DNA from: Styela clava
Lineage: Eukaryota; Chordata; Ascidiacea; Stolidobranchia; Styelidae
DNA: 64,000 nt
Reading direction: 5' to 3'
NCBI RefSeq assembly: GCF_964204865.1
Contig: NC_135253.1
Span: 21,984,001 to 22,048,000, forward strand
The stretch's first letter is position 1. The number at the start of each line of letters is the position of its first letter. The notes under the pieces are model-generated. The model was not told where the DNA came from. It made no database searches and saw only the letters and a program-made list of their open reading frames with translations. This document shows, in pieces, positions 168-55,800 of the stretch. A program made the translations under genes and the position numbers.

Positions 168-1020
168 GATTAGTTATGGAAAATCCTGTAACTATACTGA
201 TTAACGGTGTGTTATAAAGGGTGTCCATAAAGTTCCTTTACAATTTCCAAGTCAGTTCTCTATATATCTTAACCAAGTTTTTCTTTTTAATCAGTAATTG
301 TATGAAGTATTTTCACTTCATTTAATACATCTGAGAGGGTCTAAACAATATATGGTATCGATAAATTCCATTTGCAATTTAAAAAAATTTTTATGGACAC
401 CCAATTTAATAATAAAAAAGTGTTAAAAAAATAGACTCAACAATGTTGGAATTGCAGGTTGGACGTCTCGAGTTCAAATCCCGCGCCCACCACCTCACCA
501 AAGATGTAATAAATTGGGTTACAAATGCTGAACCAAAAAATGTCACAGTCCTTATAAATTGAAGGGAGCTTCTTACATATTGTGAGATATCAGTGGCTGC
601 TTGCACAGGGCCTTGTTCAGAGCCATGGGCACGACCAGTATGTTTCCCAGCTTTTATTTCAGGGGGGTGCATCCAAATTTAGGGGTTGTTATTAGTGATA
701 AAACTATTTGTAACTTATAAAAATGTGTTATGTATTTCAATGACCATTTCGCCGGAATATGAGTCACTTTCTGGATATTCAGATACAATTTTATTTACGT
801 TATGGATTAAAGTATGATGCCACATCTAAAAAATAGGGGGGTGTTCACTTCTATAGCGTGGGTGTAGGGAAATCACTGGGCACGACTACGTGTTGTTGAA
901 GACGCGTCACGTAGAATAGGCGTTTCCAGATGCCCCAGACATGACCCTTGCTTACTTCAAAAACATCGCCATATGTTCGACTCACACGCCTTATTTATTT
1001 GAGCTCTGACGGTCGGGACG
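168..1020. other. no gene seen; tRNA-like fragment inside
   Basis: AT-rich sequence without a supportable exon. Around 440-500 there is a tRNA-like 3' half with a B-box-like GAGTTCAAATCCC, probably a SINE fragment rather than a tRNA gene, since no folding 5' half is visible. Confidence 0.4.
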
Positions 1021-1500
1021 GAGTATCGAGTCTATTTCTGTAACCATGTCTAGACTGTTTTATCGCCCAAAAACCCCGCCTACGTTTTAGGGTGAATGTT
1101 GAATAGGTGGAAAAGTTTCAGTATAACCTTCAAATAAAGTTCAGTTTGTACCGGATTAAACCAGTTTGAGCTGACTAGAAAGTAAGCAGTCAAGATAACG
1201 GATATTTTTCTGTACCAACGTCGAACTCTAGACTGTCCGCGCCTACGATTGAGAGTAGACGCTGGAACGTTGGGAAAATTCCAGTATAACCTTCAAATTA
1301 AGTCCAGTTTATACCGGTTTAAACCAGTTTGAGCTGGCTTGAGAGTAAGCAGTCAAAGTATCGAGTCTATTTATGTACCCACGTCTAGACTGTTTATTGC
1401 CCAAAAGCTCCGTCAACGATTTAGGGTAAAAGTGGAATGAATAATCTTCAGAATGACCTTCAAAACAAATTTCAGTCCATACCGGTTTGAACGAGTTATG
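1021..1500. repeat. degenerate tandem repeat, about 170-bp unit, three copies
   Basis: Three diverged copies start near 1021, 1193 and 1356. Shared landmarks are TCTAGACTGT, a CAGTATAACCTTCAAAT block, and CCAGTTTGAGCTG followed by AGTAAGCAGTCAA. The copies differ by substitutions and small gaps, so the array is old. A short hAT-like stretch (CCAGTGGTTTTCAACCTGTGG) follows near 1590. Confidence 0.7.
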
Positions 1501-2239
1501 GTTTTCCTCTCAACTTTCTTGGTCCTAACTAGTGAAGGCGGATCTAGTTCTGAATGTTTGCTGATTCTAAAAAAGAAGTTTTCCCCTGAACCAGTGGTTT
1601 TCAACCTGTGGTACGCGTACCACTAGTGCACTGGTTCTTAACCAGTGGGCCATGGCCCACTTCTGGGCTACAGGAAATTTTTTGCCAGAATTAATCATAA
1701 ATTAGTTTTGGCTGTGGGTGGCAATTCTCATTTTTCTTATTTAATGAAGTGTCTATCTTTTCAAAAAGAATTTTTCGTATTTCTTAGTTTTTCCTTAGCA
1801 TGAGAATTTTTTTTTTTATCAAAAGGACAAATAAAAGCATTTCGCAAAATAGCATTTCGTGCTGAACAATGGAAATGATTGGTCACAGAATTTTTGTGCA
1901 ACAAAAGTGGAACACGACGAAAAAAAGGGCGAGAATTACTGCACTAGTGAAAGCTTTTCAAGTGGTACGCGAGCAGTTTGAATTATTCCAACAATTAACT
2001 TTTAAGTTGACTAACATATGGTGGCACACGTCGAAGTCTTATTTTCCAAATTCTTGAGTCGGAAACAACAATTTTTTTCGACTCGAATCAATTTTAAATT
2101 TTCATTACATAAAGATGGAAAAGTATGACGAAGGCTTTTGCTTTTATTTATTTTTTTCAAATTTTTTTCTGAGTTGACAGGGACCCGATGTTTCATTATT
2201 TTTTTCACTTTTTTTTGTATTGCTTGACCGCTTCGCATG

Positions 2240-2875
2240 CTTGTCCATCGATCTTTTCAAAAAACTCGGTGCTCATGTAAGGCCGTACCGTTATCGTTTC
2301 ACCGATCTTTTCAGAAAACTCGGTGCTTATGTAAGGCCGTACCGTTACTGTTTCGCCGATCTTTTCAGAAAACTCGGTGCGCATGTAAGGCCGTACCGTT
2401 ACCGTTTTGCTGATCTTTTCAGAAAACTCGGTGCTCATGTAAGGCCGTTCCGTTACCGTTTCGCCGATCTTTTCAGAAAACTCGGTGCTCATGTAAGGCC
2501 GTACCGTTATCGTTTCGCCGATCTTTTCAGAAAACTCGGTGCTCATGTAAGGCCGTACCGTTACCGTTTTGCTGATCTTTTCAGAAAACTCGGTGCTCAT
2601 GTAAGGCCGTACCGTTACCGTTTCGCCGATCTTTTCAGAAAACTCAGTGCTCATGTAAGGCCGTACCGTTACCGTTTCGCCGATCTTTTCAGAAAACTCG
2701 GTGCTCATGTAAGGCCGTACCGTTACCGTTTCGCCGATCTTTCCAGAAAACTCGGTGCTCATGTAAGGCCGTACCGTTATCGTTTCGCCGATCTTTTCAG
2801 AAAACTCGGTGCTCATGTAAGGCCGTACCGTTATCGTTTCGCCGATCTTTTCAGAAAACTCGGTGCTCATGTAAG
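2240..2875. repeat. 54-bp minisatellite, about 12 copies
   Basis: The unit contains CGGTGCTCATGTAAGGCCG, ACCGTTACCGTTTCGCCGATC and TTTTCAGAAAACT, and recurs every 54 bp. Because 54 is divisible by 3, both strands stay open through the array, giving an 18-residue repeat (plus strand RPYRYRFADLFRKLGAHV). Comparing copies, the distinct substitutions are 4 synonymous and 6 replacing in the plus frame, against 3 and 7 in the minus frame. That shows no clear selection on either. I read it as a minisatellite rather than a gene. Confidence 0.95.
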
Positions 2876-3335
2876 GGGGTTTCTTTTTTATCAATTTGTT
2901 TTCTGTATTTTTTGTATTTTTCATTGAAATACCCTTTACATCGCCGCGAAACTACGCCAAAACGTTGCATTCTGGCAGCTGCACACGCAGCCGGAATTAT
3001 AATATCAAAAATGTAAGTAAAAATTCTTATTTTAACTTTTACTTCTTTTGCGTACATTTATCGCCACGTTTGTATCTCCGCCAAAGTCATAATATTTCAA
3101 CCAGAATGTTTATCCGAGATATCAGAGAGACATTTTTAGTAAGAAAAGCTACAGCTTGAGAAGGTGTGCATGTGCCTTCATCTATATTTGTGGCGTTTTG
3201 AAGGATTTATTGCAAATAAGAAGCGCTTGGCTACCTATTTAATGCAAAAAAATCGAATAGTACAGCCATTTGGAACAAAACAGGCAAAAAAAAAACTTGA
3301 TTTAAAACATTTTTTTAAAACAATTCTTTTTGAAC

Positions 3336-3535
3336 AAATCCCTACGTACCGTTACCCTTTCGCCGATCTTTTCAGGAAACCCGGTACTCAAGTAAGACCT
3401 CACCGTACCGGTACCGTTTCGCCGATCTTTTTAGCAAACTCGATACTCAAGTAAGGCCTTCCCGTACCGTTACCGTTTCGCCAATCTTTCCAGCAAATGA
3501 GGTACTCAAGTAAGGCACTACTGCACCGGTACCGT
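3336..3535. repeat. degenerate outlying copies of the 54-bp minisatellite
   Basis: Three or four decayed units (CCGTTACCCTTTCGCCGATC, then ACTCAAGTAAGGC) resume about 460 bp beyond the main array. They keep the GTACCG core but have drifted in length. The gap between (2876-3335) holds no recognisable gene. Confidence 0.8.
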
Positions 3536-4174
3536 TTTGCGACTTTCGTGCCCATATTTTCGATCATTGCTCCCTTGTTTCAGCGACTTATTGTAAAGCC
3601 CATGGTTGAACTGAATATTGTGCGCACAGTTTAATGCTGTAAATTACATGGCCGTGTGTATTATACGTCAATGTTTATCCGACCGTGTTTGGCAAACACA
3701 TTTCGCTTAATTACGTAAAAGCCATTTCGCGGCTTATTGTTAAACAATTATTACATGTTATGGTGCTATTATTACATCACTTTGACGAAGAATTGTGAAG
3801 CAATAAACGTCTTAACACGACATGGGAAAATGCAATCTGCTACTCAGAGGAATTACTCCCGTAAAGCTAATATATTCATAACACATTAGGCCAATTTTGA
3901 CTCGTATATAAGTAAGGCTTCCTAAAGGATATATAATGTGGCGAACCATGCTGTCGAAGTTGGCTGAATAACAAGAGACAAGCGAGAGTTGAGGGACCTG
4001 TGTTCGATTCCGAGTTCTTTCAAATGCGAAATATTAATAGATTTGAGTTTTAAAACTTGATTTTAGAAAGAAAAAAAAAGCCAGTAGAGTGATACAGTTT
4101 TAAGTTGTGCTTCCGCGATATATAGTCGCGATTTTTTATAAACTTTCAAAGTAATTTTATGCAATGTAGCTCAA
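3536..4174. other. no gene seen; tRNA-like SINE fragment at about 3950-4015
   Basis: Only a short tRNA-like stretch stands out (GTTGGCTGAATAACAAGAG followed by the B-box-like TGTTCGATTCC), consistent with a decayed SINE head. The rest shows no exon or repeat I can name. Confidence 0.35.
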
Positions 4175-4505
4175 CGTTGGGCAGCGATGGCCGGTGGCCC
4201 CCAAGAGGGCACTCAGCAATTGGAGGGGGGGGGGGGCACAATGCTAGACGCAAAACTGATTTTCCTATAACTTTACAAGAAAACACTCCTAGTTTCTTCC
4301 TAGTTTCATTGCGTGATCACGTTATTTCACAAGGTGTTTTCACTTTGTAGAACATGAATTCTTTGAACAAAATGGTATTTGGGAATACACCAATCAAAAT
4401 AACAGTATAAATTCCACAGGAATGATGAACAGGGCGAGGGGGGGTGGGTGTCACGAGTACCAAAAGCCCCCGGAAGGGAGTCACGAGCCATAAAGGTTTG
4501 CGAAA
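4175..4505. mobile_element. hAT-type MITE, relative of the copy at 9628-9935
   Basis: It shares long blocks with 9628-9935 and 32230-32400: TAGTTTCATTGCGTGATCAC, a segment like GTTTTCACTTTGTAGAACATG, and the end CACGAGCCATAAAGG. The left end has GGGCAGCGATGGCCGGTGGCC. I could not define a clean target duplication. A G10 tract lies near 4228. Confidence 0.5.
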
Positions 4506-16070: not shown

Positions 16071-16650
16071 GCAATCTGTCACAGTAGACTAGATATATGC
16101 CCAAATATAAGGACACGAAGACCAGAACGAAGTATCGGTAGTACGGGTATTCAATCTGTCACAGTAGACTAGATATATGCCCAAATATAAGGACACGAAA
16201 ACCAAAACGAGGTACCGGTAGCACGGGTATTCAATCTGTCACAGTAGACTAGAGATATGCCCAAATATAAGGACACGAAAACCAAAACGAGGTACCGGTA
16301 GCACGGGTATTCAATCTGTCACAGTAGACTAGAGATATGCTCAAATATAAGGACACGAAAACCAAAATGAAGTACCGGTAGCACGGGTATTCAATCTGTC
16401 ACAGTAGACTAGAGATATGCTCAAATATAAGGACACGAAAACCAAAACGAGGTACCGGTAGTACGGATATTCAATCTGTCACAGTAGACTAGATATATGC
16501 CCAAATATAAGGACACGAAAACCAAAACGAGGTACCGGTAGTACGGGTATTCAATCTGTCACAGTAGACTAGAGATATGCTCAAATATAAGGACACGAAA
16601 ACCTAAATGAAGTAGTACGGATATGTAATCTATCACAGTAGACTACCGGT
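16071..16650. repeat. 80-bp tandem repeat, about 7 copies
   Basis: Units begin ACAGTAGACTAGATATATGC at 16081, 16161, 16241, 16321, 16401, 16481 and 16561, an exact 80-bp period. Each holds CCCAAATATAAGGACACGAA and GGTACCGGTAGCACGGGTAT. The CTCAAATATAxGGACACG core also occurs dispersed at about 7550, 7860 and 31690, so the array probably grew from part of an interspersed element. Confidence 0.95.
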
Positions 16651-50960: not shown

Positions 50961-51101
50961 AAAGGATATTCTACTGCCATCTGGATAGCTTGGTGGCATC
51001 TAATTACAATGTTGTGCTGATTTGAGTTAAATTATCCAAAACTGAGTGCTCACTCCAGCTCTCACACTTTATACAACTGCCTCCTGTGACCACAGAGTAT
51101 G

Positions 51102-51107
51102 AATAAA
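51102..51107 (+). terminator. poly(A) signal of the TACC gene
   Basis: AATAAA lies 142 bp after the TGA at 50958-50960, a normal 3' UTR length. Confidence 0.6.
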
Positions 51108-51674
51108 TTTGAGTCAGAAACAACTCTTGGTTATAAATTTTGACTGTTGACTTCAGGTTATTATGAAGAAAATTTAAATCCGACTGCCAATCCTGATAAA
51201 ACTAAATTTCTATTTAAAGGTGCGTTTACACTGGATGCGTCGCGACGCGTTGCGAAGTGCGCTCGAGATCGCTCTCCATTGTTTCAAGTGACGCCGTTCA
51301 CACTGAAAGCGCGGCACCTAACGACGACGCGCGGTGCCGCTGCTGATTCTCTCGCTGAGCGTTTTTCGGCGCGACTGACCTTCGAATTCCACGTGCTTTT
51401 TTGCGGCGGTGTCGGCTGCTTCCCGTGGGAAGTGGTTTTACATTCTGCTTAGATCAGAAGGTACCGCATTTTATAACTGCAATATCAAATTAGGTACCGT
51501 TTATCGTAATTTATAAGTTAAATATCCAAATTAGGTACCGTTATCTAGGTCAGAATAAAATTGATTGCAAGTACTAGTGAAGGATTGTAGTCTTTACTAT
51601 TTGCTATACCGGTACCGGTATGAATTCTAACAACAATTGTATTTCGAATTCATTACAAACTTTGTTTCACAGTC

Positions 51675-53286
51675 ATGTCGTTTGAAGAGCTTTTAATAAA
51701 TGAGGTGAAATCTAGACCATGTCTGTATGACATGAGTCCTCATTATCGTGATGTTAATATCAAATCCAACAATTGGGCGGAGATAGGAGCATTGCTGGAT
51801 TTATCTTGATGGCAAAATCACGTTGTCTAAAATATTTTCAAGTACACCAAATTGAAAATAAAAGCTTGCTTTGCTCAACTAACACCACAATCTGATATAG
51901 CTATTTAGGACAGCAGGCAAGAGAAGTCAAGATGAAAAATAAAAATGAAAGTACCATGGAGTCAGGGGCACCCCGAGGCGTTTCAACGAATAAATGGCAT
52001 CTATTTGAACACATGACTTTTTTAGATTCCTTCGTGCAGCATCGAAAGTAAGTTATTTTGCATAAAATCGGCACAAGAGTAAATATTGAGCTGCTGTGAT
52101 ATGTTACTATGATGAAAAGTGTGTGCCTATTTCAATGATATATCTATCACATGTTTTGAAAGGATCTGTTCAATTTGGTACAAGTTAAATTCTTTATTAA
52201 TTTGAAGTTATTTCAGGACCTTTTCTATTTCATATTTCAGAACGTCCTCAAATTTAGAACTTGTCACTCTATCAGCTGTGGTAGAAGGGGAAGAAGTGTC
52301 TGGGTCATCTTCTGTCGCACCGACACCAAAAAAAAGGAAGGAAGAAGTGAACATGCGGATTTTGAAAATTCTTGAGGAGGAGAAGGATGGTAATTTTTTT
52401 AACCTTTTCGAACATCGTTTTTGTTTCATGTTTTATCTACGGTCACACATGATATGGTGTGATCGAGATTAGTTTATTATGTTGTAGAATTAAAGGGAGC
52501 GTATGCATAGCATGCTCATATAGACAAGACAGCTACCGTATATACTCGCCTATAGGTCGCAACTTTTTACCTATTTTTAAAAAAAAATATAGGTGTGACC
52601 TATCCGCTCGACATACAGACGATTTTACAAAAATTTGGATATAGGCCATTTCTACAAATCGTAACACGCCGCACGCATCTATTACAGTTGACCTGGTTCT
52701 AACCATATAAAATTATGAGCGTCATTAACATATTTTGATTATATTTTGCCCTACAAAAAAACAAAATAGGAAGATACCTATGCAAAAATCTAGGAAAAGG
52801 GCTTTTTAAATCCGTAGATTTTCAGTTTGACTTATGTGCGAGTCAAATCAAAATCAAACTTTTTTAACACAAAACTAATAGTGCGACCTATACGGTGGTG
52901 CGACCTATAGGCGAGTATATACGGTATGCTCAAATATTTGGCAAAAAAAAATAATAGCCTTCTGGGGAAAAATTTTATCTTTAACCAATGAAAATTTCAA
53001 AACAATTGGTTCAGTTACCAAAGAGAAAAGCGATTTCTTCTGAACGTGTCAAAGAAGAACAAGACTAAGTCTAAGAACAACAAAACGTTCACTATGTCCA
53101 CTACGTGTCCAATAAACACGTAATGGTATAGAATATTGATACTATATATATTTATTTGTAGATGATCCAGACAAATTCTTCCTTCTTTCACTTCTACCAC
53201 AGCTGAAAAGACTGTCTCCTGAGCGTGCTTCATCAACAAAGATGAAAATCATGCAATTACTCCATGAGGCTGAATTTGAGAAATGA
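51675..53286 (+). CDS. Harbinger accessory protein with MADF and BESS parts
   Basis: Start at 51675 (MSFEELLINEVKSRPCLYDM), a typical MADF N-terminal half through WAEIGALL, but the frame meets TGA after 44 codons. Later exons are clear: one ending at 52047 (KWHLFEHMTFLDSFVQHRK, starting near 51910 after TATTTAG), then 52241-52389, then 53162-53286, joined in phases 2 and 1. The last exon encodes a BESS motif (DPDKFFLLSLLPQLKRL). The middle of MADF (the W-K-x-L-R-D helix) is missing between 51806 and 51910. Either a splice I cannot see bypasses the stop or this gene is damaged. In the superfamily this protein binds DNA ends and helps the transposase enter the nucleus. Confidence 0.65.
52534..52926. 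mobile_element. MITE nested inside the Harbinger
   Basis: Ends TACCGTATATACTCGCCTAT and the inverted ATAGGCGAGTATATACGGTA are perfect for about 28 bases. Non-coding, 393 bp, lying wholly within the last intron of the MADF/BESS gene. It must postdate the host element. Confidence 0.9.
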
Positions 53287-53804
53287 TTCAAATTCAATTT
53301 CCCACTTAAAAATTAGAAAATAAATTCAAACGTTTTTTTATCTTAATTACAGTACATTACTAAATTTAATTGACTCCGTACAAACTTGAGCAACCTTCTC
53401 TAAACAAGAACTCAATTTCTAAAAAATTTTAATGTTTTTTATTGTTAGTTTACCTCAACCATTTTATTATTTGTTCAGGCAGTATGCTTTTTCATTCTGG
53501 CTATTTCTCATTACAGCTTCATGGAGTATTTGCATGATTTTCATCTTTCTGCTGCTGTTTATTTTCAAATATTCTTTGATGAAAAATTTGGATTATTTTC
53601 CAAATTGATTACAGCTTGAAATATTTTAGTGTAGCGTGTCAAATGTAAAATCTCTCATTCAGTAATATGTTTTTTCGATGGTAACCACTAAGCTAGATAA
53701 AAGGAACTTTTCATGTCCTTCTGACTCTTTGAAATTGCCAGGGGCAAGCTCCATCAACCATGAAATAATTTTTAAAGCTGTCGCGAACAGCCGCCGCCCC
53801 TACA

Positions 53805-55253
53805 CTATTTCTGCGACCTTGCCTTTGCAGGGGCAAAAAACTGTTGTACCCGCCAACTTCCTCTTGTTATGTTTCCCTCCAGGTCTTCCCTATCCACTTC
53901 ACCTGCATCTATCAGTGTATGGCGTCTTACATAATTATGCAAACAACATGCTGCCTTCACAACCAACTCTGCGTTTTGTGGCGACACACCCATGGGCCTC
54001 CTAAAAACTCTCCACTTCGCACTCATTATACCAAATGCATTTTCTACTACTCGCCTTGCCCTGGATAGCCTGTAGTTGAAAACTTTTTCATCAATTGGCA
54101 AATTTCGCCCCGGGTATGGTCTCATCAGGTGCTTCTTTAGTGGGAAGGCTTCATCCCCCACTATCACATAGGGAGCCTTTTTTGAGCTGTTAGTAAGCGT
54201 TGTTTCATCCGGCAAATTCAGGGCCCCTTCATTCATGAGCTTACCGAGAGCAGAGTGGGAGAAAACACTTCCATCACTCTGCTTTCCGTAAGCTCCCACA
54301 TCGACAAAAACAAAATTATAATTGGCGTCGACAAGGGCCATTAGCACAATGCTGAAGGTGTGCTTGTAATTGTAATAAAGGGACCCTGAATTCACCGGTG
54401 CTTGAATTTGTATATGTTTCCCATCTATGCTCCCTATGCAATGTGGGAAATTCCACTTTTTCTCATACTCTTCAGCGATTTGCTTCCATTTTGTAACTGT
54501 TGGCGGGCTTAAATATTCTTTTTTGAGTGATGTCCAAATTGCCTCACAAGTTTCTGTAACTATTCCTGAAACTGTTGATTTCGATGTCCTATATGAATCT
54601 GCTATTGTGGTATAAGAATCCCCTGTTGCTAAAAATCTGAAATATGATATATGTGCACTTTTATTTGATGTTATGTTTATTTTGTTTTTAATAGTTCTAT
54701 GTGGATGTGTTATAATTTGAATATTTTCTTCCACATACATTTTGCTACATGGTTTGAATATACAGTAATTGCTCACCTTAATGTTATTCCAAGCCTCTCT
54801 TCAGGAGATATAGGTTCTCGGAAATTAGTCGTGGTTTTAGTTATGTAAGGAGCCACTAGACTCCTCAGGTCATCAAACATACCAGGGTCCAGGCGGTATT
54901 GGTTACGAAATGCAACCGTTCTTTCAAGTCTCATTTCTTGGACAAGTCTATGGTACTCACCTGCGTAGAAAGTAATATTAAATGAAAGATAAATGTTTAT
55001 TCAACTTCAAGCTCTACCGTCTGTTCAATACACAGGTAGATGAAGAAAACAGTATAAGATAGCCTATGATTAATTAATCTTATATTAGTATTTTGAGGAA
55101 AGACCACGCAATTTCATAGGGCGATGATTTGAACTTACCAAGTTCTTTCCTTCTTTTTAATATGGGATGAACCCAATGTTCCCTTTGCTTTTGCTCCGTA
55201 TTGTTTGCCAAATAAAGGGCGATTGCCAATCTTTTCCTTTTCGAAAGTGGCAT
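53805..55253 (-). CDS. PIF/Harbinger DDE transposase (HARBI1-like)
   Basis: Three exons on the minus strand, 55253-55139, 54960-54777 and 54636-53805, join in phase (1, then 2) to give 376 residues without any stop. N-terminal part: ERTVAFRNQYRLDPGMFDDL. A helix-turn-helix follows at about 101-125 (FLATGDSYTTIADSYRTSKS). The DDE nuclease follows, with D171 (GSIDGKHI), D221 (QSDGSVF) and E298 (RVVENAFG) as the likely triad; D261 in VGDEAFPL is also conserved in the family. The C-terminus contains CCLHNYV. It cuts and joins the element's ends, producing TAA duplications. The terminal repeats show it is a transposon gene and not domesticated HARBI1. The start at 55253 is the first ATG of the exon. 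Confidence 0.93.
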
Positions 55254-55599
55254 ATTTGTAAATTTTGTAGCGGAGTGGGAAGCAGACGAAATTCTAGCTG
55301 AATTTCCCGCGTCAATGTTCCTAAGCAACCGCCTCTAGCGCCCTTGAGTGGTGAAGAAATGACGCGCGCTATGTAAACACCTGCCCCGCGCGACCAGAAG
55401 CCGCGCCGCGCCGCGACGCATCCAGTGTAAACGCACCTTAAGTGTCTGCGTGCCTTTTTTATCTCTCGCGAATGCTAAGTCAATTAATTACTAGAATCAA
55501 AAGCATATTCTAACACCCGACACAGTTTGAAAATAGCTCATATAACAGCCCTCTTGAACTAGCGCCAGAACCCACTTTCCGAATCCTTAGTATTATCAG

Positions 55600-55800
55600 C
55601 ATTAGCAACTATTCAAAACTATGTGCCCACTCCAGCCCTCCACTTCATACAACTGCCTCCTCGGACCAGGGTTCTGAATCTATATCCTTATCAAAGTTGT
55701 AAACTTGTATAATCAGGTATCCGCATCCTCCGGTGAACTGAAGCCAAGGACCCTATTTCCAGATCCCTATCCAAAGTTGTATGCTCGAGTATTGAAATAA
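55600..55800 (+). other. diverged duplicate of the TACC 3' flank; possible small exon
   Basis: 55613-55680 resembles 51037-51105 (CTCCAGCTCTCACACTTTATACAACTGCCTCC-like), so the TACC 3' region was duplicated and the Harbinger now sits between the copies. After TAATCAG at about 55718 a frame reads SGELKPRTLFPDPYPKLYAR and stops at a TAA that overlaps AATAAA. It may be a real terminal exon or chance. Confidence 0.35.

Follow-up and report, generated by a model that had tools for sequence, protein, structure and literature searches.

A broken two-ended Harbinger element of Styela clava, probably moved recently by proteins of other copies

Can a Harbinger transposon that looks complete to the eye still move by itself? 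The question is raised by a PIF/Harbinger DNA transposon at positions 51218-55438 of a 64,000-nucleotide stretch of the genome of the tunicate Styela clava (the window), which an earlier note had described as an apparently intact two-gene element and perhaps a still active source copy. The element is two-ended, its MADF partner gene is broken and its transposase has lost the tail, and it is likely to have moved recently on the proteins of other copies (probability about 0.8). We infer both the recency of the movement and the mobilisation in trans from a comparison of the window copy, L009, with its relatives in one Styela clava assembly (G000, 376.6 Mb). Nineteen stretches (L009-L027) were fetched with flanks from this assembly, and counts from the genome DNA search are lower bounds, the best 40 of 2882 candidates having been scored.

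The element and the state of its two genes

The features are given in window positions; L014 is a related copy in which both reading frames are open.

51215-51217, no strand: left TAA target-site duplication
51218-55438: PIF/Harbinger DNA transposon, two-ended, with TAA on both sides
51218-51244, plus strand: left terminal inverted repeat of 27 bases, matched exactly by the right end
51675-51806, plus strand: remaining part of MADF exon 1, 44 codons; the exon end and splice donor are deleted
51807-51809, plus strand: premature stop of the MADF gene, in sequence that is intron in L014
51909-52047, plus strand: MADF exon 2, without 27 bases (nine residues of the MADF core) present in L014
52241-52389, plus strand: MADF exon 3, same length as in L014
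53162-53286, plus strand: MADF exon 4 with the BESS motif, same length as in L014
53714-53845, minus strand: out-of-frame relict of the conserved transposase tail (L009 positions 3497-3628)
53805-54636, minus strand: transposase exon 3 with the DDE domain; the frame ends early after a frameshift
54777-54960, minus strand: transposase exon 2
55139-55253, minus strand: transposase exon 1
55412-55438, minus strand: right terminal inverted repeat
55439-55441, no strand: right TAA target-site duplication

The TAA duplications and the 27 identical terminal bases were found as first described, and the terminal repeats are of PIF/Harbinger type. With one flanking base per side the wider inverted repeat of the ends extends over 38 bases at 92%. 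A 23-base end piece occurs at only two places within the window when up to three mismatches are allowed, and the mean in shuffled sequences was 0.00, so that the pair is not expected by chance. The claim that the element lies between duplicated 3' flanks of TACC shrinks to a single 63-base repeat of 84% identity (51030-51092 and 55607-55668); its first copy is situated within the TACC 3' region, before an AATAAA at 51102.

The transposase gene has three exons with GT/AG borders and encodes 376 codons without a stop, including D171, D221 and E298. This agrees with the frame first reported, the splicing being predicted. None of the three residues varies among 50 aligned family proteins, and the protein matches DDE_Tnp_4 (PF13359) with an E value of 3.6e-35. 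The closest protein match is a Styela clava protein with 99% identity over 97% of the query. Complete relatives are longer, with 410 residues in P0001, L014 and L015 and 394 in P0002, and all have a conserved tail. Exon 3 of the window copy falls 8 bases short of its length in L014 and the tail is frameshifted, which leaves 376 residues versus 410; the complete transposase of an autonomous element is therefore not encoded here. An intron that would restore the frame of the tail was rejected by eye, since GT and AG at the frame change enclose no more than a few bases.

The lost tail is conserved at several positions and is predicted to fold. At six tail positions (R387, Y393, F394, G398, W402 and Q403) the commonest residue is found in 89-96% of the proteins with a residue at that position (101-106 of the 120 aligned). 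An AlphaFold2 model of P0001 places helices at 381-395 and 403-409 in the tail, preceded by a linker (366-376) with confidence below 50; the block confidences are 94, 95 and 84. Sequence searches of the PDB with the transposase and with the alignment gave one match each, with E values of 0.22 and 0.46 and unrelated names. Foldseek found nothing in the PDB at E values up to 0.001, and its weak matches included retroviral integrase cores and Spt6.

The partner gene is more severely damaged. In close relatives it encodes 191 residues with a MADF domain and a C-terminal BESS motif. Three Styela clava relatives of the protein were identified, of which P0121 matches the MADF and BESS Pfam models over their full length; for partner genes in the assembly the analysis covered the genome DNA search and tblastn on the 19 fetched loci. 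In the window the reading frame closes after 44 codons, a splice donor and part of the MADF core are gone, and one codon is missing upstream of the 27-base deletion in exon 2; the Pfam model MADF_DNA_bdg is matched at profile positions 1-36 of 84 only. Because exons 3 and 4 keep the lengths seen in L014, a BESS-bearing remnant could be made at most. Together with the frameshift in the transposase tail, these losses contradict the description of an apparently intact two-gene element.

Copies in the genome and their shared breaks

Four other copies (L010-L013) are 99.7-99.9% identical to the window copy when indels are set aside. Any pair of the five differs by 6-12 substitutions over 4,216-4,277 aligned bases, or by 5-10 substitutions (mean 0.185%) on columns based on L014; L013 was compared in pieces because of two later transposon insertions. 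With gaps counted, the BLAST identity of the window copy to the other four is 98.6-98.7%. Gaps of 1, 1 and 42 bases, at 52754, 53415 and 53555, are peculiar to the window copy, in which there are also five substitutions absent from L010-L012.

The five copies are found on five different contigs (C4, C5, C16, C18 and C17) and are flanked by duplications of TAA, TTA, TAA, TTA and TAA. In a comparison of the 1-kb flanks of 13 copies, the longest stretch common to any two of the five was at most 132 bases. The flank of L011 contains a paralogous, element-free sequence that matches L010 on both sides of the insertion and has a single TTA. The five are independent insertions. The recent mobility proposed in the earlier note is thus supported by five near-identical copies at unrelated sites with TAA or TTA duplications, which also answers the genome search it had suggested, except that the copies are not "many".

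All five copies carry the same three breaks, namely the deletion of the end of MADF exon 1 with its donor, the 27-base deletion in the MADF core and the frameshift in the transposase tail. An intact MADF-type partner is encoded in L014 and in relatives (P0121), and neither in the window copy nor in its four siblings. The five form one clade with 100% support, separated from L014-L017 by 15 fixed differences that span L014-based positions 516 to 4250, most of the element. At 14 of these sites the outgroup L018 shows the alternative state, and at one it has a gap. The order among L014-L017 is weakly supported (57-69). Since the breaks are identical in all five copies, the simplest order would be that they arose in one ancestor, which then spread. 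No copy in this clade can make both proteins complete; with a broken partner and a frameshifted tail common to all five, the description of the window copy as a still active source loses its support.

Where, then, are intact genes to be found? With one mismatch allowed, the 23-base end has 16 + 16 = 32 matches in the genome and the reversed control 0. Pairing these by place gave 10 single ends and 11 two-ended copies (L009-L013 and L015-L020); in a two-ended copy each end has at most one mismatch over its 23 bases. The single-end places L028-L032 consist of end pieces only, with no gene match. No two-ended copy among the 11 has both genes open. One (L017) has an open partner frame, four (L015, L016, L018 and L019) have an open full-length transposase frame of 408-410 codons, although L016 has apparently lost a splice acceptor, and another four (L009, L010, L012 and L013) have an open truncated frame of 376 or 378 codons. 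In L011, L017 and L020 the transposase is broken further inside, at 325, 100 and 33 codons. These gene calls were obtained by projection through an alignment, with less certainty for the diverged L018-L020. In L022, a twelfth copy whose ends match less closely, both genes contain stops.

L014 retains two open frames, of 191 and 410 codons, and its splice sites are canonical, but the right terminal repeat is gone. Surviving predicted transposase frames are thus those of L014, L015, L018 and L019, and surviving partner frames those of L014, L017 and the diverged L024, whose partner gene was matched exon by exon and not spliced. Because none of the two-ended copies keeps both genes, autonomy appears to be split between copies. 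In L024 (G000 C4:16739108-16744664) the diverged MADF and BESS exons match P0123, a Styela clava protein of this family, and contain no stops, and a ruined transposase lies next to them; the copy has no recognisable ends and is a candidate for a retained partner gene.

The target duplications are of the 3-base TWA kind typical of the PIF/Harbinger superfamily. Equal TAA or TTA on both sides was found for 10 of the 12 copies with both ends located (L009-L013, L015, L017, L019, L020 and L022, with L019 and L020 not independent of each other, their flanks being shared), the sides being unequal in L016 (TAA/TTA) and L018 (TTA/TAA). A duplication of TTAA is excluded because copies flanked by TTA on both sides exist. 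The Pangu group is described as having an ANT duplication and a second open reading frame (ORF) without a known motif, and ISL2EU as having an AT duplication, a YqaJ second ORF and a THAP domain in the transposase (PMC4482050). Membership of either was rejected: the duplications here are TWA (TAA or TTA), the partner is of MADF/BESS type, and YqaJ and THAP gave no matches at E values up to 1.

When the genome was searched with the 410-residue protein, the same close relatives were found again, together with other Harbinger families at about 50% identity. Among the latter, at 47-50% protein identity, an open exon of 321-322 codons was found in seven of the nine matches of this score range (G000 C9:20709438, C18:1835103, C17:20177589, C13:21906805, C2:12542369, C5:19143139 and C8:3041065). 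These seven loci are possibly a second young family.

Several repeats lie within the element itself:

52536-52924, no strand: nested small inverted-repeat element that duplicates TA, in MADF intron 3
53238-53272, plus strand: 3' part of the BESS exon, which forms the sense arm of an inverted repeat
53514-53548, minus strand: near-copy of the BESS exon end in inverted orientation, lying between the convergent genes

The nested element has a TA duplication and a 28-base perfect inverted repeat, and related pieces are found at many places in the genome. It is present in L009-L015, partly deleted in L016 and itself interrupted in L017, and is older than the burst of five copies. The near-copy of the BESS end lies 276-277 bases downstream (210-216 in L023 and L024), and its opposite strand reads as the same BESS residues downstream of the transposase. 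The pair is also found in L010-L017, L019, L020, L023 and L024, and at the same threshold was not found in L018 and L022. A second inverted match of 25 bases at 92% joins MADF exon 3 (52272-52296) and the start of the BESS exon (53182-53206).

Other transposons have left traces in the family. The two insertions in L013 (element-strand positions about 1062-1557 and 1676-2616) are a 495-base element with GGACCTTTCCCCG ends and a hAT-like element with CAGGGTTGCCA ends and an 8-base duplication. Small insertions that resemble excision footprints of other transposons occur in MADF exon 1 of L015 (8 bases) and L016 (6 bases) and in transposase exon 2 of L013 (6 bases). Elsewhere in the window there are tandem arrays at 2249-2876 and 16072-16614, with units of 54 and 80 bases, and scans of the window against Rfam at gathering scores and for tRNAs gave no matches.

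How the broken copies may have moved

Harbinger transposition is reported to need two proteins (PMC2836001), a transposase and, in the described systems, a Myb-like protein that binds the ends and is needed for entry of the transposase into the nucleus (PMC2836001, PMC9179366); partners of MADF type are described in PIF/Harbinger elements of insects (PMC9710019). If the same requirement holds here by analogy, L009-L013 would be unable to mobilise themselves but could be moved in trans. The ancestor of the five would first have acquired the deletions in its partner gene and the frameshift in its transposase. Having kept its ends, it would then have been mobilised in trans. Other members of the family would have supplied a transposase and a MADF partner to bind the ends, excise the element and insert it at TWA targets. 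A precedent is given by the mPing element of rice, which is moved by the proteins of Ping and Pong (PMC2836001).

Several points weigh against this interpretation. L014-L017 are also young, 0.6-1.1% from L009-L013, so recent movement is not confined to the broken sublineage. The truncated frame has stayed open in four of the five copies (376 or 378 codons), with L011 stopping at 325; because the copies are so young this is uninformative. The mean fraction of the commonest residue is 0.40 at positions 365-384 and 0.53 at 385-410, versus 0.68 at 166-300 with the DDE residues, and the 376-residue protein keeps the whole DDE domain match and may be active. On the side of the supply, L014 is a candidate only, and intact copies may be present in other individuals, as P0001 and P0121 represent clusters of 8 and 9 sequences. 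The family is small, with few copies.

The likeliest of the alternatives is that the window copy is half-autonomous, the 376-residue transposase being active and the MADF partner alone being supplied in trans. Its DDE domain is complete, the frame is open in four of five copies, and the sublineage without the tail is the one that spread; the tail positions are, however, conserved in distant homologues and the tail is predicted to fold, and we consider this explanation rather unlikely. In a bolder version, which is doubtful and drawn by analogy with the Ping transposase without its export signal, loss of the tail itself would have set off the burst, the 376-residue protein being hyperactive and borrowing its MADF partner. 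If this were true, the partner would come from copies such as the one-ended L014, and the family would survive with its functions divided, none of the two-ended copies in this genome having both proteins. An autonomous and still active source element is very improbable. The ends, duplications and catalytic triad are intact and near-identical copies exist, but the partner gene has lost its donor and MADF core and stops at 44 codons, the tail is frameshifted, and all of this is common to the five copies. The sequence contradicts such a source unless the MADF partner is dispensable. It is also known that truncated KP elements inhibit P elements. By analogy the broken copies could inhibit the family through a tail-less transposase (four of five copies), a 44-residue MADF fragment or a fragment with BESS alone, should translation start in exon 2. 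Selection on such fragments would not yet be visible in copies of so low an age, and a role of this kind seems very unlikely.

Two further explanations concern the copies rather than their proteins. The five might have been inserted intact, the breaks being spread later by gene conversion, which near-identity makes possible in principle. This would require several events on different contigs that spared L014-L017, and the 15 fixed differences are distributed along most of the element; such a history is hardly credible. Segmental duplication of host DNA does occur in this genome, as the C6 copies L018-L020 share flanks. For L009-L013 it was rejected, being contradicted by flanks without extended similarity, by the separate TWA duplications and by the empty paralogous site of L010. 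Mobilisation in trans of an already broken ancestor is accordingly the reading we prefer.

Place among known systems and meaning

The miniature mPing of rice derives from Ping by deletion. The Styela clava copies recall the Ping/Pong/mPing system in that a copy without the complete proteins is there, and here would be, moved in trans by a transposase and partner (ORF1 in rice) of other elements, and in the 3-base target duplication, usually TAA; mPing is gene-less, whereas the spreading copies here are nearly full-length with small breaks (PMC2836001). The zebrafish pair Harbinger3_DR/Harbinger3N_DR likewise depends on two proteins, a transposase and a partner; functional proteins have been reconstructed there and the partner is Myb-like, whereas the Styela clava partner is of MADF type and the family is known from sequence (PMC2836001, PMC9179366). 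In gene content the family resembles insect PIF/Harbinger elements with a MADF second gene, which share the pairing of transposase and MADF partner and the 3-base duplications. The present family differs in its tunicate host, in a partner that also has a BESS motif and in the broken state of the partner in the window; the term BESS has 0 occurrences in the main text of that report (PMC9710019).

A tunicate PIF/Harbinger family with a MADF and BESS partner was not met in the literature searched, and a literature search with one exact set of terms, for Harbinger copies that are full-length but nonautonomous and have Myb-like partners, gave no match. The family is regarded as a new low-copy member of a well-known kind of PIF/Harbinger element, distinguished by its MADF and BESS partner and its tunicate host.

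An element that is intact by eye can belong to a defective and yet spreading sublineage, and only a comparison with its siblings brings this to light. The main interest of the family is that the sublineage that spread is nearly full-length but broken, and that both genes are open in 0 of 11 two-ended copies. The genome holds a natural set of parts, with copies that are two-ended and broken, one-ended with both genes open, transposase-only and partner-only. Such a set lends itself to testing, in an animal, which of the proteins and which region of the transposase Harbinger transposition requires.

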